Part shown: positions 3,127 to 23,146 of the stretch, piece after piece
Position numbering within the stretch: the stretch's first letter is position 1
Layout: every line of letters begins with the position of its first letter
NCBI RefSeq assembly: GCF_000182745.2
Contig: NC_016027.1
Location: 2,765,001 to 2,829,000, forward strand
DNA length: 64,000 nt
Direction: 5' to 3'
DNA from: Komagataeibacter medellinensis NBRC 3288
GTDB lineage: Bacteria > Pseudomonadota > Alphaproteobacteria > Acetobacterales > Acetobacteraceae
The notes under the pieces: model-generated
The model's database searches: none
Told to the model about the DNA's origin: nothing
The model's input: only the letters and a program-made list of their open reading frames with translations
Made by a program: the position numbers and the translations under genes

Positions 3127-3202
3127 GTCCCGTTCGTCTAGAGGCCTAGGACGCCGCCCTCTCACGGCGGCAACACGAGTTCGAATCTCGTACGGGACGC
3201 CA
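3127..3202 (+). tRNA. tRNA-Glu (anticodon CTC)
   Basis: The acceptor stem GTCCCGT pairs with ACGGGAC at 3192-3198. The D-arm is GTCTAGAGGCCTAGGAC, the anticodon stem CCGCC/GGCGG encloses CTCTCAC with anticodon CTC, and the T-arm is CGAGTTCGAATCTCG. The discriminator is G and CCA is encoded. Its own terminator follows 30 bases downstream. Confidence 0.95.
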
Positions 3203-3394: not shown

Positions 3395-3823
3395 CGTGCA
3401 TTGAAATTTAAAAATATTTTCCGTCTTTTAATTTTCAGGCAGATGGCAGCATAGTGGAATCCTGTCATTTTCCGTATTTATCCTTTGAATTTCTGCAAGA
3501 ATTATCCCCGGTAACCGGGAGGACGTGAGTCGGAGCCGACGTGACATAAATGCAACTTTTCTTGCGTTCCGGTTTGTTGGTGTGTGGGGGCTGTTTCACC
3601 GCGGGGGCGTAAGACGTTATGGTTCCCCCGGAATGAAGTCCTTAATCTGACATCGGTACCCTTTATCTTGCAGGATGAAGGAGTTTGCGATTAAGCCGTG
3701 ATGGCACGGCGGACGGGAAACTGAACATCGAACCCTGCTGGTGATTGCATGGGTTCTGATTTCTGAGTGGTATGGTGATCGATGCTGTTGGATTTTATGA
3801 AGCTGCAAAAACAGGTATCCGGA

Positions 3824-4861
3824 ATGGAACGTCGTTCTTTTCTGTCTGTCATGGCGGCAGTTGGCAGTATGTCGTTCATTTCTTCCGCAGTTGCAGCAGA
3901 TGACCCTGTCATAAACGCCCAGTGGGCCATTTTCCGCACAAAATATTTTCATGCCGATGGCCGGATTATCGATACCGGCAATAGTGGTGAGTCCCATAGT
4001 GAAGGGCAGGGCTACGGCATGCTCTTCGCCGCAACCGCAGGCGACCAGACTACGTTCGAAGCCCTGTGGGCCTGGACACGTACCAACCTGCAACACAAGA
4101 CCGACAAGCTGTTTTCCTGGCGCTACCTTGATGGGCACAATCCGCCGGTAGCCGACAAGAATAATGCGACCGATGGTGATCTGCTGATTGCGCTGGGTCT
4201 GGTACGCGCCGGGAAGCGTTGGGACAGGGCCGACTATATTCAGGACGCTATTGCCATCTATGGTGATGTGCTGAAGCTCATGACCATGCAGGTCGGGCCC
4301 TATAAGGTCCTGCTCCCTGGCGGTGTGGGTTTCGTGAATAAGGATTCGGTTACGCTTAACCTGTCCTACTACGTCATGCCCTCCCTCATGCAGGCGGTTG
4401 CGCTGTCTGGTGATGCAGGCTGGCAGAAGGTGATAGCGGACGGGCTCCTAATCATCGGTCAGGCCCGATTCGGGGAATGGAAGCTTCCACCGGATTGGAT
4501 TTCGATCAATCGACAGAGCGTGCATGTCTCCATCGCCAAGGGGTGGCCGCCACGTTTCTCCTATGATGCGATTCGTGTGCCGCTGTACCTTTACTGGGCC
4601 CATATGCTTTCCCCGGAACTGCTGGCTGGCTATGCAAACTTCTGGAACCATTTCGGCGCGTCCGCCCTGCCGGGCTGGGTCGATCTGACCAACGGGACTC
4701 GTTCGCCTTACAACGCGCCGCCAGGGTATCTTGCTGTAGCAACGTGTTCCGGCCTGGCGTCTGCCGGTGGGTTACCGACGCTGAACAATGCGCCGGATTA
4801 TTATTCTGCTGCCCTGACATTGCTGGTTTATATTGCCCGTGGCGAGGGAGGGGGAATGTGA
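3824..4861 (+). CDS. bcsZ: endo-beta-1,4-glucanase, GH8 (CMCax)
   Basis: A secreted cellulase of glycoside hydrolase family 8 that trims nascent glucan in the periplasm and improves cellulose yield and assembly. From ATG 3824 it has 345 residues, the usual CMCax length. The catalytic acid is in SHSEGQGYGM (Glu60) and the catalytic base region is RFSYDAIRVPLY (Asp248). The N-terminus MERRSFLSVMAAVGSM to AVAA is a signal peptide with an RRSFL pair that resembles a Tat motif. In-frame ATGs at 3782 and 3797 would add a hydrophilic extension. The gene opens the cellulose operon, and its stop overlaps the GTG start of ccpAx in GTGA. Confidence 0.93.
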   Translation: MERRSFLSVMAAVGSMSFISSAVAADDPVINAQWAIFRTKYFHADGRIIDTGNSGESHSEGQGYGMLFAATAGDQTTFEALWAWTRTNLQHKTDKLFSWRYLDGHNPPVADKNNATDGDLLIALGLVRAGKRWDRADYIQDAIAIYGDVLKLMTMQVGPYKVLLPGGVGFVNKDSVTLNLSYYVMPSLMQAVALSGDAGWQKVIADGLLIIGQARFGEWKLPPDWISINRQSVHVSIAKGWPPRFSYDAIRVPLYLYWAHMLSPELLAGYANFWNHFGASALPGWVDLTNGTRSPYNAPPGYLAVATCSGLASAGGLPTLNNAPDYYSAALTLLVYIARGEGGGM

Positions 4862-5850
4862 CTACGTCCAATAAGGAAAATGTGGTAGCGACTCCGCGTC
4901 CGACTGTGGATATGAATAATCCGCAGGACGTGGCCCGTATGCTGACCGGTGGCTATGGACTGAGCGGGGAGGGGTTTCATTATCATTCCTTTACGCGCCC
5001 GGTCATGCTGGATGTGACACCGGATCTACCCTCTGGTTACGAGGATGACACACGGCACCATTTGGACGATAACGTCACCGAATGCTCCTCCGTTCCGACT
5101 GCGGAGCCGGAACCCGTGGCCGAACCGGTGCATACGCCCGTAGCGCCTCCAGTTATTGCCGAAATTGCGCCCACGCCTCCTCCGCCGCCGCCTGCACCAC
5201 CGCCGCCGCCGCCCCATACGCCGGTCGTGGCGCCTGCGCCGCATCAGCCCGAAGTGGTGGTGGACGTGCCTGTGCCCGAACCTGTGGTTGAAGTTGCCAA
5301 GGCGCAGGTTTCCGTCGCACCGGAAAAACCCCAGTTCGCGCCGACGGCGCAGGTTGCCCCTGCACCTTCTGCCGATACAGCGGCAACGGCCGGACGTGAA
5401 CGGCGTGGACTACAGCCTTTTGCTGCTTCGCCCTCCACCCCTGCCGCCGCTACGCCGCCGCGTGCGGCTTTCTCCGATGCGCCGACGGTCCAGGCCGATG
5501 ACTGGGCACCGGTGCCAAAGGCCCAGCAGCGCCGCGGTCAGCGCCCGACCGGACCGGGATTCTTTTTTGCCAAAGGGAATGACCGGGTCGTGACCGCCCG
5601 TCTGTTTCAGCCGGTAGCAGTGACACGTCCTGCTCCCAAACCTGCCACCAAGGTGACCACGATGACCAAATTCGACAAGAACGCACAGAATAACCCGGTG
5701 GGGCGTCGTCCTGCACCATCTGACAATTCGCCGACCCTGACGGAAGTTTTCATGACACTGGGCGGTCGCGCCACGGACCGCCTGGTCCCCAAGCCCAGCC
5801 TGCGTGATGCCCTGTTACGCAAGCGCGAGGAAGAAAACGGGCAATCCTGA
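4858..5850 (+). CDS. ccpAx: cellulose-complementing protein CcpAx (BcsH)
   Basis: A Komagataeibacter-specific accessory protein needed for ordered crystalline cellulose; from memory it interacts with BcsD and helps line up the terminal complexes. I choose GTG 4858, which overlaps the bcsZ stop (GTGA) and has the strong site GAGGGAGGGGGA just upstream, giving 330 residues. After a short N-terminal domain (about 1-60, with GYGLSGEGFHYHSFTRPV) comes a long low-complexity Pro/Ala/Val region (about 80-230) that is probably disordered. The conserved C-terminal motif EVFMTLGGRATDRL followed by PSLRDALLRKREEE identifies the family. No signal peptide or membrane helix is visible, so it is cytoplasmic. 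A 185-bp gap separates it from bcsA. Confidence 0.9.
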   Translation: MTTSNKENVVATPRPTVDMNNPQDVARMLTGGYGLSGEGFHYHSFTRPVMLDVTPDLPSGYEDDTRHHLDDNVTECSSVPTAEPEPVAEPVHTPVAPPVIAEIAPTPPPPPPAPPPPPPHTPVVAPAPHQPEVVVDVPVPEPVVEVAKAQVSVAPEKPQFAPTAQVAPAPSADTAATAGRERRGLQPFAASPSTPAAATPPRAAFSDAPTVQADDWAPVPKAQQRRGQRPTGPGFFFAKGNDRVVTARLFQPVAVTRPAPKPATKVTTMTKFDKNAQNNPVGRRPAPSDNSPTLTEVFMTLGGRATDRLVPKPSLRDALLRKREEENGQS

Positions 5851-6035
5851 GCTTGCCCGGGGCGCGTAGGGCCTGATGGCAGCCTGTCTGTTATGGATAA
5901 GGGATGCAGGCCCCGCCCCTATGAACCGCATGCCATGCGGGCCGAAAGGCGACATGAAGGACCGGAAGCGTCTGAAGGTTTTCTTTTTAGTGTAACTATC
6001 TGTTTTATCAGTATTTATTATCGGACGAATTATTG

Positions 6036-8273
6036 ATGCCAGAGGTTCAGTCGTCAGCGCCCGCAGAAAGTTGGTTTGATCGCTTTTCCAACAGGATACT
6101 GTCACTGCGTGGTGCCAGTTATATCGTTGGGGCCGTGGGCCTGCTTGCCCTGCTTGCTGCGACCACGGTTACGCTGTCGCTAAATGAGCAGCTGATTGTG
6201 GCATTAGTGTGCATTGCGGTCTTTTTTATCGTTGGTCGCCGCAAGAGCCGTCGTACCCAGATCTTCCTGGAAGTCCTGTCGGCACTGGTATCGCTGCGCT
6301 ACCTGACATGGCGTCTGACTGAAACGCTGGATTTCGAGACATGGCTCCAGGGCATGCTGGGTGTCACGCTGCTTCTGGCGGAACTGTACGCGCTCTACAT
6401 GCTGTTCCTCAGCTATTTCCAGACCATTTCTCCCCTTCATCGCGCGCCGATCCCCCTCTCGCCCAACCCGGATGACTGGCCGACGGTCGACATCTTTATT
6501 CCGACCTACGATGAGAGCCTGAGCATCGTGCGCCTGACGGTGCTGGGGGCGCTGGGTATCGACTGGCCACCGGAGAAGGTAAACGTCTATATCCTTGATG
6601 ATGGCAAACGTGAGGAGTTCGCCCGTTTTGCCGAGGAATGTGGCGCCCGCTACATCGCCCGCCCCGATAATGCACATGCCAAGGCCGGCAACCTTAACTA
6701 CGCCATCAAGCATACGTCTGGTGAACACATCCTGATCCTGGACTGCGATCACATCCCGACCCGCGCGTTCCTGCAGATCGCGATGGGGTGGATGGTCGAG
6801 GATCCGAAGATTGCCCTGATGCAGACGCCGCATCACTTCTATTCCCCCGATCCGTTCCAGCGGAACCTGGCGGTTGGTTACCGTACGCCGCCTGAAGGCA
6901 ATCTGTTTTATGGCGTTATTCAGGACGGTAACGATTTCTGGGATGCCACCTTCTTCTGCGGTTCGTGCGCCATCCTGCGCCGTAAGGCGATTGAGGAGAT
7001 TGACGGCTTCGCAACCGAGACCGTAACGGAAGATGCCCATACCGCCCTGCGCATGCAGCGTCGGGGATGGTCAACCGCCTATTTGCGCATCCCGCTTGCC
7101 AGTGGTCTGGCAACGGAACGCCTCATGACGCATATTGGTCAGCGCATGCGCTGGGCGCGTGGCATGATCCAGATCTTCCGCGTTGATAATCCCCTGCTCG
7201 GGCCCGGCCTGACGCTGGGCCAGCGGCTTTGCTATCTCTCGGCGATGACATCGTTCTTCTTCGCCGTCCCCCGTGTCATCTTCCTTGCTTCCCCGCTGGC
7301 GTTCCTGTTCTTCAACCAGAATATCATTGCAGCTTCGCCCGTAGCGGTTCTGGCTTACGCCATTCCTCACATGTTCCACTCCATCGCGACTGCGTCAAAG
7401 GTGAACAAGGGGTGGCGCTATTCATTCTGGAGCGAAGTGTACGAGACCGTCATGGCACTGTTCCTTGTGCGCGTGACCATCGTGACGATGCTGTTCCCTT
7501 CCAAGGGCAAGTTCAACGTGACGGAAAAAGGTGGTGTTCTGGAGAACGAGGAATTCGACCTCGGTGCGACATATCCGAACATCATCTTCGCTGTGATCAT
7601 GGCGGTTGGCCTGCTGCGCGGGCTATATGCCCTGATCTTCCAGCATTTGGACATAATCGGAGAGCGCGCTTACGCGCTGAACTGCATCTGGTCCGTGATC
7701 AGTCTCATCATCCTGCTTGCGGCCATTGCGGTGGGGCGTGAGACCAAGCAGATCCGGCACAGTCATCGTGTTGCCGCATGTATTCCCGTAACCGTTTACG
7801 ATTACGAAGGGAATTCAAGTCACGGGGTCACGCAGGATGTCTCCATGGGTGGCGTGGCCATTCACATGCCGTGGCGTAATGTAACACCGGACCAGCCGGT
7901 GCAGGCCGTGGTTCATGCCGTGCTGGATGGTGAGGTCGTCAATCTTCCCGCCACCATGATCCGCTCTGTAAACGGCAAGGCGGTTTTTACCTGGAACATC
8001 ACTTCGCTCTCGATTGAAGCCGCTGTCGTCCGGTTTGTGTTCGGTCGTGCCGATGCCTGGCTGCAGTGGAATGATTACGAAAATGACCAGCCGTTGCGAA
8101 GCCTGTGGAGCCTGATCTTCAGCATCAAGGCGCTGTTCCGCAAGAGGGGGCAGATAATGGCCCATAGTCGTCCGCAAAATAAACCCGTTGCATTGCCGGT
8201 TGAGCGCAGGGAGCCAACAAGCAGTCAGGGTGGTCAGAAACAGGAAGGAAAGATCAGTCGTGCGGCCTCGTGA
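6036..8273 (+). CDS. bcsA: cellulose synthase catalytic subunit BcsA (type I)
   Basis: The inner-membrane GT2 enzyme that polymerises UDP-glucose into beta-1,4-glucan and moves the chain through its own channel, activated by cyclic di-GMP. From ATG 6036 it has 745 residues. N-terminal helices cover about 25-130. The glycosyltransferase motifs are DDG (188-190), DCDH (236-239), TED (331-333) and QRMRW (369-373). Membrane helices follow between about 390 and 565. The C-terminal PilZ domain carries RHSHR (573-577) and DVSMGG (about 601-606), both intact, so c-di-GMP binding is expected. It is separate from bcsB, not fused as in some strains, and ends one base before the bcsB ATG. Confidence 0.97.
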
Positions 8274-8274
8274 T

Positions 8275-9816
8275 ATGAAAATGGTGTCCCTGATCGCGCT
8301 GCTGGTCTTTGCAACGGGAGCGCAGGCCGCGCCGGTTGCATCCAAAGCGCCAGCCCCCCAGCCAACGGGCGATAACCTGCCACCGCTGCCTGTTGCAGCA
8401 CCCACGCCCGCTGCCCGGCCGACTTCCGCCGCGGCTCCTGCCGTCGATCCGGCTGCTGCCAGCGCGGTTAATACCATTGTGGACAATGCGGAAAACGCCG
8501 CCGGAATTGGTTCCGACGTGGCGACGGTGCATACCTACTCCCTGCGTGAGCTTGGTGCGCAGAGCGCGCTGACCATGCGCGGCGCTGCCCCCTTGCAGGG
8601 GCTGCAGTTCGGTATCCCGGCCGATCAACTCGTAACCTCGGCCCGGCTTGTCGTGTCGGGTGCGATGTCGCCCAATCTCCAGCCTGATAGCAGCGCGGTC
8701 ACGATCACGCTGAACGAGCAGTATATCGGCACGCTGCGTCCAAATCCGTCACATCCGGCCTTCGGTCCGCTGTCCTTTGATATCAACCCGATCTTCTTTG
8801 TCAGCGGCAACCGCCTGAACTTCAATTTTGCGGCCGGTTCAAAAGGCTGCGCCGATCCCAGTAACGGGTTGCAGTGGGCCAGTGTGTCCGAGCACTCCGA
8901 ACTTCAGATCACAACCATCCCGCTGCCTCCCCATCGTGAGTTGTCCCGGCTGCCGCAGCCGTTCTTTGATAAGAACGTAAGACAGAAAACGGTCATTCCG
9001 TTCGTGCTTGCACAAACATTTGATCCCGAAGTGCTGAAGGCATCCGGCATCCTGGCATCCTGGTTCGGCCAGCAGACCGATTTTCGTGGCGTGAACTTCC
9101 CGGTATTCTCCACCATTCCGCAGACGGGCAACGCCGTTGTGGTTGGTGTGGCGGATGAACTGCCGTCCGCTCTTGGCCGTCCCGCCATCAATGGCCCGAC
9201 CCTGATGGAAGTTGCCAATCCTTCCGATCCCAACGGCACGATCCTGCTGGTAACAGGCCGGGACCGCGATGAAGTCATTGCTGCGAGCAAGGGTATAGGT
9301 TTCGGTTCTAGCGCGCTGCCGGTCGCGGCGCGCATGGATGTGGCACCGATTGATGTCGCGTCCCGCGTACCGAATGATGCGCCGTCCTTCATTCCGACCA
9401 ACCGGCCTGTCCGGTTTGGGGAACTGGTGCCGGTCAGTGCCTTGCAGGGCGAGGGCTATACCCCAGGCGTGCTGTCCGTGCCGTTCCGCACATCACCTGA
9501 CCTGTATACATGGCGTGACCGGCCGTACAAGCTGAACGTGCGCTTCCGTGCGCCCGATGGGCCGATCATTGACCTTGAGCGTTCGCATCTGGATGTGGGT
9601 ATCAACAATACCTACCTGCAATCCTACTCCCTGCATGAAAAAAGCAGCATGGTGGACCAGTTGTTCCAGCGGATCAGCGGGGGAAACCAGACATCCAGCG
9701 TGCAGCAGCATACGCTTACCATTCCGCCATGGATGGTATTCGGCCAGGATCAGCTGCAGTTCTATTTTGATGCAGCTCCCCTGACCCGGCCCGAGCTTGA
9801 TTCACATGTCGGTTGA
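8275..9816 (+). CDS. bcsB: bcsB 5' fragment: signal peptide and N-terminal periplasmic domains
   Basis: This frame encodes 513 residues. [18 protein letters not shown] is a signal peptide, followed by an Ala/Pro-rich linker to about residue 75 and then the first carbohydrate-binding and flavodoxin-like domains. It reaches FYFDAAPLT of the second carbohydrate-binding domain. The last nine or so residues (RPELDSHVG) are out of frame. The product would be a soluble periplasmic fragment without the membrane anchor. Frames starting upstream at 8188 overlap bcsA and are not used. Confidence 0.8.
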
Positions 9817-10651
9817 TCCGGATTCCACGATCGACCTGTCCAACGCCTACCACATCACGCGCATGCCTAACCTGGCTTACATGGCCAGCGCTGGGTACCC
9901 GTTCACCACCTATGCCGATCTGTCGCGCTCGGCCATGGTGCTGCCTGACCACCCGAATGGTACGATTATCAGCGCCTATCTCGATCTCATGGGCTTCATG
10001 GGGGCGACGACGTGGTACCCGGTATCGGGGCTCGATATCGTTTCGGCCGACCATGTAAACGATGTGGCGGACAGGAACCTGATCGTCCTGTCTACCCTGA
10101 GCGATAGCGGGGAGGTTTCTTCCCTGCTGTCGAATTCATCGTACCAGATTTCGGACGGGCGCCTGCACATGGGGATACGCTCCACTCTCAGGGGTGTGTG
10201 GAACATTTTCCAGGACCCGATGGCTGCCATCAACAATACCCACCCGACCGAGGTCGAAACGACGTTGAGCGGTGGCGTGGGGGCTATGGTGGAAGCGGAA
10301 TCTCCGCTTTCATCGGGGAAAACCGTTCTCGCCCTGCTTTCGGCTGACGGGCAGGGGCTGGACAACCTGGTCCAGATCCTGGGGCAGCGTAAGAACCAGG
10401 CCAAGATTCAGGGTGATCTCGTGCTTGCGCATGGGGATGACCTGACATCATACCGTAGTTCACCTGTTTACACTGTTGGCACGCTGCCGATGTGGCTCAT
10501 GCCGGACTGGTATATGCATAACCATCCCGTCCGTGTGATTGTGGTGGGGCTGTTTGGGTGCCTGTTAATTGTGGCTGTTCTGGTTCGTGCCCTGCTGCGG
10601 CATGCACTGTTCCGTCGGCGGCAGTTGCAGGAAGAAAGGCAGAAATCGTGA
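9797..10651 (+). CDS. bcsB: bcsB 3' fragment: second flavodoxin-like domain and membrane anchor
   Basis: This frame holds the last 284 residues of BcsB, from [20 protein letters not shown] to the end. The C-terminal helix [21 protein letters not shown] anchors normal BcsB beside BcsA and is followed by a basic tail ([12 protein letters not shown]). Possible restart codons are TTG 9797 and ATG 9806; the ATG is 6 nt before the TGA of the first frame, so reinitiation is imaginable. The fragment has no signal peptide and so is unlikely to complement the first part. Its open frame and intact sequence suggest a recent mutation. Confidence 0.75.
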
Positions 10652-10653
10652 GT

Positions 10654-13600
10654 ATGAACAGACGATACGTCTTTTCCCTTTCTGCCGGCCTGCTTGCCAG
10701 CAGTTGCATGACCGTGCTGGTCGCGGTGCCGGTGGCGGTGCGTGCCCAGCAGGCTTCCACTGCCATGACCGGAGCCCAGGCTTCGGGCGGGTCGGCGGCA
10801 CCGCGGCAGATCCTGTTGCAGCAGGCGCGTTTCTGGCTCCAGCAGCAGCAGTATGACAATGCGCGTCAGGCCTTGCAGAATGCCCAGCGTATAGCCCCGA
10901 ACTCCCCCGATGTGCTTGAGGTGCAGGGCGAGTACCAGACGGCAATGGGCAACCGGGAAGCCGCTGCCGATACGCTGCGCCATCTTCAGGAGGTGGCACC
11001 CGGCAGCACGGCCGCAAACAGCCTGAGTGATCTGCTGCACGAACGCTCCATCTCTGCGTCTGACCTGTCGCAGGTGCGTTCACTTGCCGCATCCGGGCAT
11101 AATGCGCAGGCAGTGCAGGGGTACCAGAAGCTGTTCAGTGGTGGTAAGCCACCACGCTCGCTGGCGGTGGAATACTACCAGACCATGGCGGGCCTGCCGG
11201 TTGAATGGAGTCAGGCGCGGGCCGGGCTTGCCGGTATCGTGGCGGCCAATCCGCAGGATTATCATGCCCAACTCGCCTTTGCGCAGGCGCTGACATACAA
11301 TACGACCACCCGTATGGAAGGACTGTCGCGGCTCAAGGACCTGCAGGGTTTCCGTAGCCAGGCCCCGGTCGAGGCCGCTGCTGCGACCCAGTCCTACCGG
11401 CAGACGCTTGGCTGGCTGCCCGTAACGCCGACCACCCAGCCGCTCATGCAGCAGTGGATTGATGCGCATCCCAACGATACCGAATTGCGCGAGCACATGG
11501 CCCATTCGTCCGGCGGGGCTCCGGACAAGGCTGGCCTTGCGCGCCAGGCAGGCTACCAGCAGCTCAATTCCGGCCGAATCTCTGCTGCCGAGCAGTCATT
11601 CCAGTCCGCATTGCAGATCAATTCCCATGATGCTGATGCCCTTGGCGGCATGGGTCTGGTCAGCATGCGGCAGGGTGATGCCGCAGAAGCGCGCCGTTAT
11701 TTTCAGGAAGCGATGGCGGCCGACCCCAAGACGGCGGACCGCTGGCGTCCGGCGCTGGCAGGCATGGAAATCAGCGGTGACTATGCCGCGGTCCGCCAGC
11801 TTATTGCCGCCCATCAGTATGATGCGGCCAAGCAGCGCCTATCCTCTCTGGCACGCCGACCGGGCCAGTTTACCGGGGCCACGCTCATGCTGGCCGACCT
11901 GCAGCGTACGACAGGTCAGACCGGCAGCGCCGAGCAGGACTACCAGGCCGTGCTGTCGCGTGATCCTAACAGCCAGCTTGCCCTGATGGGCCTGGCGCGC
12001 GTGTATATGGAGCAGGGGAAAACGGCTGAAGCCCGACAGCTCCTGTCGCGTGTCGGACCGCAATACGCGACCCAGGTGGGGGAAATTCAGGTAACGGGCC
12101 TGATGACTGCCGCATCACAGACCTCGGATTCCGCGCGCAAGGTATCCATCTTGCGTGAGGCCATGGCCCAGGCCCCGCGCGACCCATGGGTGCGGATTAA
12201 CCTGGCCAATGCCCTGCAGCAGCAGGGAGACATGGCGGAAGCCAGCCGTGTCATGCAGCCGATCCTGTCAAACCCCGTTACCGCGCAGGACCGGCAGGCC
12301 GGTATCCTGTTCACCTATGGCAGCGGTAATGATGCGATGACACGCCGCCTGCTTTCCGGCCTTTCACCCGATGACTATTCCCCCGCGATCCGTGCCATCG
12401 CAACGGAAATGGAAATCAAGCAGGATCTGGCCAGCCGCCTGGCCATGGTTGCCAATCCTGTTCCGCTGATCCGTGAAGCCCTGTCCCCGCCCGATCCGAC
12501 GGGCGCGCGTGGTGTGGCGGTGGCCGACCTGTTCCGTCAGCGTGGTGATATGATCCATGCCCGGATGGCCTTGCGTATCGCTTCGTCCCGCACATTGGAT
12601 CTTTCGCCTGACCAGCGGCTGGCTTACGCCACGGAATATATGAAGATCAGCAACCCGGTTGCCGCGGCCCGCCTGCTGGCTCCGCTGGGTGATGGCAGCG
12701 GCACGGGAGCGGGCAATGCCCTTCCGCCCGAACAGGTGCAGACCCTGCAGCAACTGCGCATGGGCATTGCCGTGGCTCAGTCCGACCTGCTCAACCAGCG
12801 TGGCGATCAGGCTCAGGCTTATGATCAGTTGGCCCCGGCCCTGCATGCCGATCCTGAAGCGACATCGCCCAAGCTGGCGCTGGCGCGGCTCTATAATGGT
12901 CAGGGTAAATCCGGCAAGGCACTGGACATCGACCTGGCCGTGCTACGGCATAACCCGCAGGATCTGGATGCGCGGCAGGCCGCCGTGCAGGCTGCCGTCA
13001 ACAGCGATCGCAAAAGCCTTGCCACCCGCCTTGCAATGGATGGCGTGCAGGAAAGCCCGATGGATGCCCGCGCCTGGCTTGCGATGGCCGTGGCCGACCA
13101 GGCCGATGGCCATGGCCACCGGACCATCAGTGACCTGCGCCGGGCCTATGACCTGCGTCTGCAGCAGGTGGAGGGCACGCGGGCGAATGTCGGGGCGGGA
13201 GCGGGTGAACAGGAATCGCTCCAGCCCCCGTCAAGCAACCCGTTCCGCCATCATGGCTATGGACGGCAGACGGAGCTTGGCGCGCCGGTCACAGGCGGTT
13301 CCTACAGCATGGAAGCGACATCCCCCGAAGCGTCTGACCAGATGCTCTCCTCCATTGCCGGGCAGATCACCACGCTGCGTGAAAACCTGGCGCCTTCCAT
13401 TGATGGCGGGCTGGGGTTCCGCTCGCGTTCGGGCGAGCACGGCATGGGCCGCCTGACGGAAGCGAATATTCCCATCGTAGGACGCCTGCCGCTGCAGGCG
13501 GGTGAATCCAGCCTGACCTTCTCGATCACGCCAACCATGATCTGGTCGGGCCAACTTGATACCGGTTCTGTCTATGACGTGCCCCGATATGGTACCAACA

Positions 13601-14661
13601 TGGCGACACAGGCGCTTAACCAGTATGTCCGTTACCTGAACCATAACAACCCGAACGCAACCGGTGGTTATCATGGTGAGCGTATACAGGGCGGAGAGGG
13701 TGAAGCAGGCTTCGCGCCTGATGTCCAGTTCGGCAATAGCTGGGTGCGTGCCGATGTTGGGGCTTCCCCGATCGGATTCCCTATCACCAATGTGCTGGGT
13801 GGGGTCGAGTTTTCGCCGCGCGTCGGGCCGGTGACATTCCGTGTCAGTGCGGAACGCCGTTCGATTACGAACAGCGTCCTGTCCTACGGCGGTCTGCGTG
13901 ATCCGAACTGGGAAAACAATATCGGGCGGTATTATCGGGAAATTTCCCGTCTGGCCGATAGGACTTTTGGCACTCATCTTGCTTCGGAATGGAGAGGGGA
14001 GTGGGGCGGCGTCGTCACCAACCATTTCCATGGTCAGGTCGAGGCGACACTGGGCAATACCATCCTGTACGGTGGCGGTGGCTATGCCATCCAGACCGGC
14101 AAGAACGTCAAGCAGAATAATGAGCGTGAGGCAGGGATTGGTGTCAACACGCTGGTCTGGCATAATGCCAACATGCTGGTGCGCATCGGTGTCAGCCTGA
14201 CCTATTTCGGTTATGCCAAAAATCAGGATTTCTATACATATGGACAGGGTGGTTACTTCTCGCCCCAGTCCTATTACGCGGCAACCGTGCCCATCCGTTA
14301 CGCCGGGCAGCACAAGCGGCTGGACTGGGATGTGACAGGAAGCGTGGGTTACCAGGTGTTCCATGAACACTCGGCCCCGTTCTTCCCCACATCATCGCTC
14401 ATGCAGGCCGGTGCCGAAACAGTGGCCGCCAGTTATCTGGCCAATGCAACGCCATCGGATTATCTCTCCCAGGAGACAGTCAACAGCGCCTACTATCCGG
14501 GGGATAGTATTGCTAGTCTTACTGGCGGATTTAATGCTAGGGTCGGGTATCGATTTACCCACAATCTTCGTCTTGATCTGTCGGGGCGCTGGCAGAAGGC
14601 CGGCAACTGGACTGAAAGCGGCGCCATGATTTCCGCACACTATCTTATTATGGACCAGTAA
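10654..14661 (+). CDS. bcsC: cellulose export subunit BcsC (TPR and outer-membrane barrel)
   Basis: The outer-membrane exporter for the glucan. From ATG 10654 it has 1335 residues. MNRRYVFSLSAGLLASSCMTVLVAVPVAVRAQ is a signal peptide. About residues 35-850 are helical TPR repeats (QYDNARQALQNAQRIAPNSPDVLEVQGEY is typical) that bind peptidoglycan and position the channel. About 950-1335 form the BCSC C-terminal beta-barrel, ending with SGRWQKAGNWTESGAMISAHYLIM. The start lies 2 nt after the bcsB stop, so its translation is normally coupled to bcsB; the bcsB 3' frame is still open up to this point. The stop overlaps bcsD by one base. Confidence 0.96.
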   Translation: MNRRYVFSLSAGLLASSCMTVLVAVPVAVRAQQASTAMTGAQASGGSAAPRQILLQQARFWLQQQQYDNARQALQNAQRIAPNSPDVLEVQGEYQTAMGNREAAADTLRHLQEVAPGSTAANSLSDLLHERSISASDLSQVRSLAASGHNAQAVQGYQKLFSGGKPPRSLAVEYYQTMAGLPVEWSQARAGLAGIVAANPQDYHAQLAFAQALTYNTTTRMEGLSRLKDLQGFRSQAPVEAAAATQSYRQTLGWLPVTPTTQPLMQQWIDAHPNDTELREHMAHSSGGAPDKAGLARQAGYQQLNSGRISAAEQSFQSALQINSHDADALGGMGLVSMRQGDAAEARRYFQEAMAADPKTADRWRPALAGMEISGDYAAVRQLIAAHQYDAAKQRLSSLARRPGQFTGATLMLADLQRTTGQTGSAEQDYQAVLSRDPNSQLALMGLARVYMEQGKTAEARQLLSRVGPQYATQVGEIQVTGLMTAASQTSDSARKVSILREAMAQAPRDPWVRINLANALQQQGDMAEASRVMQPILSNPVTAQDRQAGILFTYGSGNDAMTRRLLSGLSPDDYSPAIRAIATEMEIKQDLASRLAMVANPVPLIREALSPPDPTGARGVAVADLFRQRGDMIHARMALRIASSRTLDLSPDQRLAYATEYMKISNPVAAARLLAPLGDGSGTGAGNALPPEQVQTLQQLRMGIAVAQSDLLNQRGDQAQAYDQLAPALHADPEATSPKLALARLYNGQGKSGKALDIDLAVLRHNPQDLDARQAAVQAAVNSDRKSLATRLAMDGVQESPMDARAWLAMAVADQADGHGHRTISDLRRAYDLRLQQVEGTRANVGAGAGEQESLQPPSSNPFRHHGYGRQTELGAPVTGGSYSMEATSPEASDQMLSSIAGQITTLRENLAPSIDGGLGFRSRSGEHGMGRLTEANIPIVGRLPLQAGESSLTFSITPTMIWSGQLDTGSVYDVPRYGTNMATQALNQYVRYLNHNNPNATGGYHGERIQGGEGEAGFAPDVQFGNSWVRADVGASPIGFPITNVLGGVEFSPRVGPVTFRVSAERRSITNSVLSYGGLRDPNWENNIGRYYREISRLADRTFGTHLASEWRGEWGGVVTNHFHGQVEATLGNTILYGGGGYAIQTGKNVKQNNEREAGIGVNTLVWHNANMLVRIGVSLTYFGYAKNQDFYTYGQGGYFSPQSYYAATVPIRYAGQHKRLDWDVTGSVGYQVFHEHSAPFFPTSSLMQAGAETVAASYLANATPSDYLSQETVNSAYYPGDSIASLTGGFNARVGYRFTHNLRLDLSGRWQKAGNWTESGAMISAHYLIMDQ

Positions 14662-15131
14662 TGACAACTTTCAACGCAAAACCGGACTTTTCGCTGTTCC
14701 TGCAGGCCCTGTCCTGGGAGATTGATGATCAGGCCGGCATTGAGGTGAGGAACGACCTGCTGCGCGAGGTCGGTCGTGGCATGGCGGGTCGGCTGCAGCC
14801 GCCGCTGTGTAACACCATTCACCAGTTGCAGATCGAACTGAACGCTCTGCTGGCCATGATCAACTGGGGCTATGTGCAGCTTGAACTGCTGCCCGAAGAC
14901 CAGGCCATGCGTATCGTCCATGAAGAACTGCCGCAGGTGGGCAGCGCAGGTGAGCCGGCAGGCACGTGGCTGGCGCCGGTGCTCGAAGGGCTGTATGGCC
15001 GCTGGATCACGTCGCAGCCCGGTGCGTTTGGTGATTATGTCGTTACGCGCGATGTGGATGCGGAAGATCTCAACTCCGTTCCCAGCCAGACGATCATTCT
15101 GTACATGCGCACCCGCAGCAGCGCCAGCTGA
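14661..15131 (+). CDS. bcsD: cellulose synthase subunit BcsD (crystallisation)
   Basis: A 156-residue protein, the full family length. BcsD is a periplasmic or terminal-complex octamer through which several glucan chains pass, and loss lowers crystalline cellulose yield. Recognisable stretches are FSLFLQALSWEIDDQAG near the start, GEPAGTWLAPVLEGLYGRWITSQ in the middle and DYVVTRDVDAEDLNSVP near the end. No signal peptide is visible, which is usual for annotated BcsD. TAATG couples it to bcsC. The terminator at 15166-15209 closes the operon. Confidence 0.96.
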   Translation: MTTFNAKPDFSLFLQALSWEIDDQAGIEVRNDLLREVGRGMAGRLQPPLCNTIHQLQIELNALLAMINWGYVQLELLPEDQAMRIVHEELPQVGSAGEPAGTWLAPVLEGLYGRWITSQPGAFGDYVVTRDVDAEDLNSVPSQTIILYMRTRSSAS

Positions 15132-15358: not shown

Positions 15359-17560
15359 ATGAGACTGTCCCGCAAGATATGCCTGCTTTCCGCCGTGGCG
15401 TGGGGGCTGGGCGCTGGCGTGCCCGCTCAGGCCCGTCATGCCGCCACAGCCAGTGATCTGGCCGATGAGCAGGCGCGGCAGGTACTCGCGCATATGAGCC
15501 TGCAGGACAAGATGGCCCTGCTGTTCAGCGTGGATGGCGGCGGTTTCAATGGCAGTGTTGCCCCTCCTGGTGGCCTGGGTTCGGCGGCTTACCTGCGCGC
15601 GCCTCCCGGTTCGGGCCTGCCGGACTTGCAGATATCGGATGCTGGGGTTGGCGTGCGCAATCCTGCGCATATCCGCCCCAATGGCGCGGCGGTCTCCCTG
15701 CCATCCGGTCTGGCCACAGCCAGTAGTTGGGATATGGACATGGCCCGGCAGGCGGGCGAGATGATCGGGCGGGAGGCATGGCGCAGCGGTTTTAACATCC
15801 TGCTGGGCGGGGGGGCGGACCTTACGCGTGACCCGCGTGGCGGCCGTAACTTTGAATATGCGGGTGAAGACCCGCTCCAGACCGGGCGCATGGTGGGCAG
15901 CACCATTGCTGGCGTGCAGTCGCAGCACGTCATTTCCACGCTCAAGCATTACGCGATGAATGATCTTGAAACATCGCGCATGACCATGAGCGCCGACATC
16001 GACCCTGTGGCGATGCGCGAGAGCGACCTGCTGGGCTTCGAGATTGCGATTGAAACCGGACACCCCGGTTCCGTCATGTGCTCGTACAACCGGGTGAATG
16101 ACCTGTATGCGTGTGAAAACCCCTATCTGCTGAATACGACGCTGAAGCAGGACTGGCACTATCCCGGCTTTGTCATGTCCGACTGGGGGGCCACGCATTC
16201 TTCTGCCCGCGCGGCGCTGGCGGGGCTGGATCAGGAGTCAGCAGGGGACCATGCCGATGCGCGCCCCTATTTCACGGCCCTGCTTGCAGCAGACGTCAAG
16301 GCCGGGCGCGTGCCTGCTTCCCGTATTGATGACATGGCCCAGCGCATTGTCCGTTCCCTGTTTGCGGCAGGGCTGGTCAGCCATCCGCCCCAGCGCGGGC
16401 CACTGGATGTCGTAACCGATACCCTGGTAGCCCAGCATGATGAGGAGGAAGGCGCGGTCCTGCTGCGTAATGAAGGGGGTATCCTGCCGCTTTCGCCCAC
16501 GGCGCGGATCGCGGTCATTGGCGGGCATGCCGATGCGGGCGTGATTTCGGGTGGCGGGTCCAGCCAGGTCGATCCCATCGGGGGGGAAGCGGTAAAGGGG
16601 CCGGGCAAGAAGGAATGGCCGGGTGATCCGGTCTATTTCCCCTCATCACCGCTCAAGGCCATGCGGGCCGAGGCACCTGATGCCCATATCACGTATGAGT
16701 CAGGCACCAATATTGCCGCTGCCGTGCGCGCCGCGCGGGCGGCCGACGTGGCGGTCGTGTATGCAACACAGTTCACCTTTGAGGGGATGGACGCGCCCAG
16801 TATGCATCTGGACGCCAATGCCGATGCCCTGATTACGGCCGTGGCCGCAGCCAACCCGCGTACCGTGGTGGTGATGGAAACCGGCGACCCGGTGCTCATG
16901 CCGTGGAACAGCAGCGTGGCTGGCGTGCTGGAGGCATGGTTTCCCGGTTCCGGTGGTGGCCCTGCCATTGCGCGCCTGCTGTTTGGCAAGGTCGCGCCTT
17001 CGGGGCACCTGACCATGACCTTCCCGCAGGCTGAAAGCCAGTTGGCCCACCCCGATATTGCCGGTGTCACGGCGGACAACGTGTTCGAGATGCAATTCCA
17101 TACCGATCAGGAACTGGTCTATGACGAAGGCAGTGATGTGGGTTACCGCTGGTTCGACCGCAATCACCTCAAGCCGCTCTACCCGTTCGGGTATGGCCTG
17201 ACCTACACCACCTTCAGCACCGATGGGCTGGCGGTGCACAAGCATCATGATACGGTCAGCGTAACCTTTAACGTGCATAATACCGGTAACCGTGCCGGTG
17301 TGGATGTGCCGCAGGTTTATGTGGGTCTGCCTGATGGCGGCGCACGCAGGCTTGCTGGCTGGCAGCGGGTGAGTCTGGCGCCAGGTGAGAGCCGTGAGGT
17401 CACGGTCCAGCTCGATCCGCGTCTGCTGGCGCATTTTGATGGCAGGAAGGACCGCTGGAGTATTCCTTCGGGTAAGTTCCGGCTGTGGCTTGCGGATTCG
17501 GCAGCCGATGAGCGCCAGCAGGTGAGCATGCACCTGCCCGGTCACACCCTGGCGCCCTGA
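15359..17560 (+). CDS. bglxA: beta-glucosidase of glycoside hydrolase family 3 (BglAx)
   Basis: A secreted 733-residue GH3 enzyme that releases glucose from cello-oligosaccharides and shows some transfer activity; it is the standard downstream partner of the type I bcs operon. MRLSRKICLLSAVAWGLGAGVPAQA is a signal peptide. The N-terminal barrel carries KHYAMNDLE and the nucleophile motif GFVMSDWGATHS (Asp275). The second domain has AVLLRNEGGILPL and GVLEAWFPGSGGGPAIARLLFG. A fibronectin III-like domain ends the protein (about 620-725). The start has an excellent AAGGAGGAG site. The gene sits downstream of the bcs terminator, so it probably has its own promoter regulated at the palindrome 15323-15338. 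Confidence 0.95.
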   Translation: MRLSRKICLLSAVAWGLGAGVPAQARHAATASDLADEQARQVLAHMSLQDKMALLFSVDGGGFNGSVAPPGGLGSAAYLRAPPGSGLPDLQISDAGVGVRNPAHIRPNGAAVSLPSGLATASSWDMDMARQAGEMIGREAWRSGFNILLGGGADLTRDPRGGRNFEYAGEDPLQTGRMVGSTIAGVQSQHVISTLKHYAMNDLETSRMTMSADIDPVAMRESDLLGFEIAIETGHPGSVMCSYNRVNDLYACENPYLLNTTLKQDWHYPGFVMSDWGATHSSARAALAGLDQESAGDHADARPYFTALLAADVKAGRVPASRIDDMAQRIVRSLFAAGLVSHPPQRGPLDVVTDTLVAQHDEEEGAVLLRNEGGILPLSPTARIAVIGGHADAGVISGGGSSQVDPIGGEAVKGPGKKEWPGDPVYFPSSPLKAMRAEAPDAHITYESGTNIAAAVRAARAADVAVVYATQFTFEGMDAPSMHLDANADALITAVAAANPRTVVVMETGDPVLMPWNSSVAGVLEAWFPGSGGGPAIARLLFGKVAPSGHLTMTFPQAESQLAHPDIAGVTADNVFEMQFHTDQELVYDEGSDVGYRWFDRNHLKPLYPFGYGLTYTTFSTDGLAVHKHHDTVSVTFNVHNTGNRAGVDVPQVYVGLPDGGARRLAGWQRVSLAPGESREVTVQLDPRLLAHFDGRKDRWSIPSGKFRLWLADSAADERQQVSMHLPGHTLAP

Positions 17561-17568
17561 GGCGGATC

Positions 17569-18207
17569 ATGTGGCGCGCGACCTGTCTTGTGCTGGGGGC
17601 GGCTGTGCTGGCTGTCTCCACTCCGGTCCATGCCGTGTCCCTGCCCGATACCCCGCTCAACCGCGCACGCGCACAGATGGCCGTGCAGGAACTGGAAATT
17701 ATGCTGCTGACCCACCCCAGCGCCACCCTTGCGCTGGAGGCGTGGTGCACCACCCACCACCTGGCCGATAGCCCGGTCGTGACAGCACGTAAGATGACGG
17801 TGGCCGAGCCTGACGATGCGCCCCCTGCCGTGCGCGCCAACCTGGGTGTTAGCGCCACGCAACGGGTACGACACCGACAGGTGCAGCTTGTCTGTGGCGC
17901 GCATGTGCTTTCGGTGGCCGATAACTGGTATGTGCCCGATCGGCTCCCGGCACAGATGAATGTCATATTGGAACAGACCGATACATCATTCGGTCATGTG
18001 GTGGCACCGCTGCATTTTTCACGCACCCGTCTGGAGTTCGACCGCCTGTGGTCTCCATGGCCGGGCCTGATGCCTGCGGCCAGCCTTGCCGTGCCCGCGA
18101 TAATCGTGCGCCAGCGCGCGGTGCTGCATGATGAACACGGCCAGCCCTTTAGCGAAGTTGTGGAAACCTATACCGATCAGACGCTTGATTTCCTGTCCGC
18201 TGGCTAG
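17569..18207 (+). CDS. secreted protein resembling the UbiC/chorismate-lyase fold
   Basis: A 212-residue protein beginning 8 nt after the bglxA stop with GAGGCGG as ribosome-binding site, so the two are translated together. MWRATCLVLGAAVLAVSTPVHA is a signal peptide. The pattern HPSATLALEAWC, then VRHRQVQL, ADNWYVPDRL, SFGHVVAPL...RTRLEF and PFSEVVETY resembles the chorismate-lyase/UTRA fold, including an Arg and a Glu near the expected ligand site. A periplasmic location does not fit ubiquinone synthesis, so the function is unknown. The resemblance is by eye and could be superficial. Confidence 0.55.
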   Translation: MWRATCLVLGAAVLAVSTPVHAVSLPDTPLNRARAQMAVQELEIMLLTHPSATLALEAWCTTHHLADSPVVTARKMTVAEPDDAPPAVRANLGVSATQRVRHRQVQLVCGAHVLSVADNWYVPDRLPAQMNVILEQTDTSFGHVVAPLHFSRTRLEFDRLWSPWPGLMPAASLAVPAIIVRQRAVLHDEHGQPFSEVVETYTDQTLDFLSAG

Positions 18208-22705: not shown

Positions 22706-22793
22706 GTGTCATGTCTCCCCTGGTGGACTCGGTCGTCATCCAGGGCGATCACGGGCGCGCACCGATCGCCCGCATGGGCCGTGCAGCCGCCAG

Positions 22794-22937
22794 TTCTCTT
22801 CTATCCGGACTGTAACCGTCGGCTCTGGTTTCCCACCAGATCTGCTGACTCCGGCACGCAGGGCATGCCGGGCGCTCGCGGGCTTCAGGCCGTGCGCCTG
22901 TTACCGCCGGTAGGGACTTCCACCCCGCCCTGAGAAC
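22794..22937 (-). ncRNA. FMN riboswitch (RFN element)
   Basis: Read on the minus strand the element shows the conserved RFN blocks in order: TTCTCAGGGCGGGGTG, AAGTCCCTACCGGCGGTAA, GCCCGCGAGCG, AGATCTGGTGGG, CCGACGGTTACAGTCCGGAT and AGAGAA closing P1. It binds FMN and normally represses riboflavin synthesis or uptake genes. Downstream a hairpin GGGCGATC/GATCGCCC (22743-22771) and CCACCAGGGGAG at the methyltransferase start follow. CTGGTGG inside the aptamer (22833-22839) can pair with CCACCAG next to the ribosome-binding site (22720-22726). Confidence 0.92.
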
Positions 22938-23146
22938 ACTGGCACCCACAATAAGGGGAGTGCTGCAATGGCAGCAAGCCTGTGGAGACATCCATGATCC
23001 GGTTGTATGATAAAGGGACGCTGCAAGGGACCAGATCTGCCGGAATTAAAGGCGCATGGTAGATCAGGGCTTGAATAACAGCCTGCCGAATGTTTCCCTA
23101 CGCTCCCTTTTGTGTGTTCTGGCTTTTCAATGGCGGCAAGTATTAT

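Follow-up and report, generated by a model that had tools for sequence, protein, structure and literature searches.

A 17-bp deletion splits type I bcsB between two reading frames and almost certainly corresponds to the loss-of-function allele published for Komagataeibacter medellinensis NBRC 3288

The type I bcsB gene is split between two reading frames

The type I bcsB gene in the window, the 64,000-nucleotide stretch of DNA that was analysed as a whole, was split between two reading frames at the site of a 17-bp deletion, and we are nearly certain that this allele is the published loss-of-function bcsBI of Komagataeibacter medellinensis NBRC 3288. The window was judged to come from NBRC 3288, and both the break of bcsBI and its spontaneous reversal in that strain are already in print; the finding is accordingly correct but repeats earlier publications.

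The gene occupied positions 8275-10651 on the + strand and consisted of two different frames, represented by the open reading frames 8188-9816 and 9797-10651. The 5' piece (8275-9816, + strand) began at the ATG at 8275 with a signal-peptide-like start and ended at a premature TGA at 9814-9816, giving a product of 513 amino acids that reached to about two thirds of PF03170 (BcsB). The 3' piece (9785-10651, + strand; 288 codons) lay in the other frame and carried the PF03170 remainder and a C-terminal hydrophobic stretch. The second frame had a stop at 9782-9784 and was open only from 9785 on to 10651, which restricted the overlap with both frames open to 9785-9813. The frame junction was thus bounded by two stops (9782-9816, + strand), with the octamer CCCGGCCC at 9785-9792, equal to contig positions 2,774,785-2,774,792. 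The PF03170 matches were consecutive across the two pieces, covering profile positions 4-419 and then 431-606 of 606. The first-pass annotation had described bcsB as lying in two frames joined within 9781-9820, and the open reading frames, the Pfam matches and the positions of the stops all agreed with this description.

The split gene was part of a type I cellulose operon on the + strand in the order bcsZ-ccpAx-bcsA-bcsB-bcsC-bcsD-bglX. The other genes were open as had been claimed, and each matched its own family: the GH8 endoglucanase gene bcsZ/cmcAx (3782-4861, + strand; PF01270, E=3.6e-64), the cellulose-complementing protein gene ccpAx/bcsH (4744-5850, + strand; PF17040, E=5.3e-24), the gene for the catalytic subunit with PilZ domain, bcsA (6033-8273, + strand, with a putative start codon; Pfam match), bcsC (10648-14661, + strand; Pfam match), bcsD (14661-15131, + strand; PF03500, E=8e-43) and the GH3 beta-glucosidase gene bglX (15359-17560, + strand; Pfam match). 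The bcsB stop overlapped an in-frame GTG of the bcsC frame in the sequence GTGA, an arrangement that 15 of 18 relatives share with the window.

Relatives carry an unsplit bcsB that is longer at the junction

A 601-base query around the junction was searched in the genus and returned 19 genomes with its own included, all 19 of them matching. In all 18 other genomes bcsB was a single stop-free frame of 822-890 codons, and in three of these (L021-L023) the open frame continued past the upstream end of the fetched stretch. The junction stretch measured 71 bases in the window as compared to 88 in 17 of the 18 relatives and 91 in one (L021), making the window 17 bp shorter than 17 relatives and 20 bp shorter than one. 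The net difference over the whole match of about 600 bases was 17 in 15 relatives; one relative differed by 20 and two by 14, owing to other indels in the match. A loss of 17 bp shifts the frame. The alignment to Komagataeibacter bcsB that the first-pass annotation had proposed returned unsplit, longer relatives, and its statement that the allele would be 17 bp shorter agreed with the alignment count. The 16-letter peptide it had given for other strains was exact in 3 of the 18 relatives, while the others differed by at least one residue. The deleted codons include a cysteine that aligns, in the intact relative L006, with a cysteine of the BcsB of solved structure 6yg8, which we take to be E. 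coli BcsB.

Recombination between CCCGGC-type micro-repeats had also been proposed as the origin of the deletion. When the window was aligned to L006, five placements of the deletion tied at 113 of 120 matching positions, leaving the breakpoint ambiguous, and four of the five were flanked by CCC repeats. Microhomology of at least three bases for a 17-bp deletion is expected by chance at 123 of 2352 positions of the L006 gene (about 5%). A micro-repeat-mediated deletion may tentatively be considered a plausible origin of the allele, to judge from these placements. Recombination between the two CCCGGC copies of L006, as aligned, would delete 12 bp and keep the frame, hence it would not give this allele, and the exact CCCGGC version of the proposal fails.

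Among the 15 relatives sharing the GTGA overlap, two (L010 and L012) had a bcsC frame that ended after 38-39 codons. A table of one review lists a 5-bp bcsCI deletion for K. europaeus LMG 18890 (PMC7347698).

The allele corresponds to published bcsBI of NBRC 3288

The genome comprised 8 contigs and 3,513,191 bases, with the window on a contig of 3,136,818 bases starting at position 2,765,001. The bcsBI allele of NBRC 3288 was reportedly described by Ogino et al. 2011 and Matsutani et al. 2015, as relayed by later papers. The same figure of 3,513,191 is printed for K. medellinensis NBRC 3288, GCF_000182745.2, in the text available of PMC13028821, and excerpts of PMC6528568 give K. medellinensis as 8 pieces and 3.51 Mb with bcsBI disrupted by a frameshift. 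The review table of PMC7347698 lists a 17-bp deletion in bcsBI of NBRC 3288 and no cellulose. PMC6559206, in the passages available, gives an 18-bp deletion and a premature stop; the count here was 17. According to the excerpts of PMC8855687, the strain was a producer when isolated in 1954, and a report of 1999 described its production as completely lost. NBRC 3288 is described as a non-producer in the available parts of three papers (PMC6559206, PMC7347698 and PMC8855687), and one table scores its cellulose phenotype as +/- (PMC6528568).

Two revertants, R1 and R2, are tabulated with one-base changes in CCCGGCCC at the printed positions 277486 and 277491 (PMC7347698). Provided that print omitted one digit 7 from each number, these fit contig positions 2,774,786 and 2,774,791 (window 9786 and 9791).

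The window allele shared with the published allele the 17-bp deletion, the frameshift, the premature stop, CCCGGCCC and damage in the other bcs clusters. No difference between the two was found, and they were judged to be the same sequence from the allele together with the neighbouring lesions. The first-pass annotation had brought in NBRC 3288 as a parallel; the frameshift and reversion it cited are indeed reported, but they belong to the same strain and do not form a second independent case. The allele is unmentioned in the excerpts of PMC9135448 and PMC11999647. For this sequenced vinegar strain the genetic cause of cellulose loss is known and already in print, and it is useful to keepers of cellulose-producing cultures.

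Proposed consequence for cellulose synthesis

The C-terminal membrane helix of BcsB anchors the protein beside BcsA and is needed to support BcsA. Loss of this anchor through the frameshift had been predicted, and the hydrophobic stretch does sit in the second frame. We propose that the loss of 17 bp from the latter half of the BcsB domain shifts the frame such that the ribosome would stop at 9814-9816, and that the resulting truncated BcsB, without the end of its BcsB domain and without the membrane anchor, most likely cannot support BcsA. Early termination would probably lower bcsC as well by uncoupling its translation, since the bcsB stop overlaps the GTG in the bcsC frame, a putative start. 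Translation may restart near 9797-9806, in which case the product would be without a signal peptide. The reported revertants carry a second-site compensating small indel nearby; with one further base lost, the predicted BcsB has about six residues fewer than that of most relatives. The prediction in the first-pass annotation of a cellulose-negative strain is supported and agrees with the published phenotype.

Three further bcs clusters are present in the genome

BcsA-like sequence was present at four sites of the genome, and BcsB and BCSC_C at three each, the two pieces described here counting as a single BcsB site. A second bcs operon had been suggested as something to look for, and three further clusters (2, 3 and 4) were found. 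In cluster 2 bcsAB2 was open, and an IS66 transposase gene was located where bcsC2 begins (L056:10255-11865, + strand; chromosome 3,065,254-3,066,864). What remained of the bcsC2 frame opened where the IS66 gene ended, aligning with bcsC1 from residue 25 onward, and a stretch upstream of IS66 resembled a putative bcsC start. Cluster 3 contained a 976-aa AB3 frame without a BcsB match, overlapping the bcsC3 frame (L057:3812-9903, - strand). A 2195-bp loss in bcsAB3 is reported in the available part of PMC6559206, and the truncated bcsAB3 seen here is consistent with it. Cluster 4 contained an open bcsAB4 of 1545 codons, and the nearest BCSC_C match was tens of kilobases away.

Both lesions reported for NBRC 3288 in these clusters, a bcsCII broken by an insertion sequence and a bcsAB3 without most of BcsB, were found. 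The cluster damage, bcsY aside, matches the reports for this strain in the text available of PMC6559206 and PMC6528568. Judged from sequence, the other clusters would not substitute for the type I operon, with IS66 at bcsC2, no BcsB domain in bcsAB3 and no bcsC near bcsAB4.

The acyltransferase gene of cluster 2 (bcsY) was split in two frames (L056:7847-9041, + strand; chromosome 3,062,846-3,064,040). Its open reading frames, 7847-8485 and 8184-9041, matched PF01757 at positions 3-112 and 119-322 of 326.

The junction octamer is ordinary coding sequence

We consider it very unlikely that CCCGGCCC is unusually mutable or a weak +1 slip site; if it were, a low standing BcsB function and a return of pellicles faster than expected from ordinary indel rates would be predicted. 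The first-pass annotation had suggested that the locus may behave as a contingency switch for pellicle formation; in such an evolved phase-variation locus the C-rich tract would slip at a high rate and toggle the pellicle phenotype. Both tabulated revertants changed inside CCCGGCCC, and a comparable K. oboediens bcsC stretch seems sensitive to spontaneous mutation according to the same review (both in the available parts of PMC7347698). The clustering of the revertants may be sufficiently explained by the two stops about 30 bp apart, as compensation is possible only between them and this by itself concentrates revertants there. The tract consists of two C3 runs only, in a gene with 39 runs of at least three C, and bcsB has longer runs elsewhere, the longest being a C6 at 8354 and an A6 at 9638; no long simple-sequence repeat was found in bcsB, and the junction held C3 runs only. 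The exact octamer was present in 6 of the 18 relatives and the encoded Pro-Gly-Pro motif in 15, and the 64-kb window held 8 copies of the octamer on the + strand and 9 of its complement. Moreover, the off state arose by a 17-bp deletion and not by slippage in the tract. Among Komagataeibacter papers on phase variation and cellulose, none was about the bcsB locus by title. With a tract this short, equal or longer runs elsewhere in bcsB and a loss that did not involve slippage, the contingency locus was rejected as highly improbable. The octamer CCCGGCCC is better read as ordinary coding sequence for a widespread Pro-Gly-Pro motif, and the published loss and return of cellulose should not be taken to prove a contingency switch.

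Leaky or programmed +1 ribosomal frameshifting, by which the split allele would yield some full-length BcsB, has a smaller chance still of being correct. Low-level +1 slips are known at sites where CCC is followed by G. One such site, with the CCC in frame, was present at 9790-9793, in the sole stretch with both frames open, and the +/- score for cellulose (PMC6528568, one table) would suit some residual function. The descriptions of the strain as a non-producer (available parts of PMC6559206, PMC7347698 and PMC8855687) speak against it. Such a shift is needed by no relative, as bcsB was in a single frame in 18 of 18, and programmed frameshifting was rejected because bcsB was split in none of them. 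An error of sequencing or assembly in the deposited genome is the least probable alternative, for although frameshift errors are common in GC-rich tracts, a homopolymer miscall does not amount to 17 bp, and this allele, a phenotype that fits it and revertants are reported in the available parts of four papers that may share one original source (PMC6559206, PMC6528568, PMC7347698 and PMC8855687). The reading we retain is a loss-of-function bcsBI caused by the 17-bp deletion.

Comparison with other cases of cellulose loss

A bcsCI frameshift and its revertants in the K. oboediens MSKU 3 lineage were reportedly described by Taweecheep et al. 2019. This case resembles bcsBI of NBRC 3288 in the spontaneous loss by an indel and the reversion by a nearby compensating indel, and differs in that the gene was bcsC and the loss was a one-base insertion during passaging (review excerpts, PMC7347698). 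Agitated K. intermedius ENS15 is alike in that small bcs indels, including slippage events, accompany cellulose loss, whereas there bcsA and bcsC were affected, in evolving populations (available text of PMC13068021).

Other features of the window

A tRNA-Glu gene (CTC; 3127-3202, + strand) was located upstream of the cellulose operon and was the sole tRNA found by ARAGORN in the window. When the first 20 kb of the window were compared with plasmid records, six matched, only at the pseudouridine synthase gene and the tRNA gene. Directly after bglX was an open frame of 212 codons (17569-18207, + strand) without a Pfam match at an E of 0.001. An FMN riboswitch aptamer of ordinary kind was detected at 22789-22941 on the - strand, scoring far over the Rfam cut-off.
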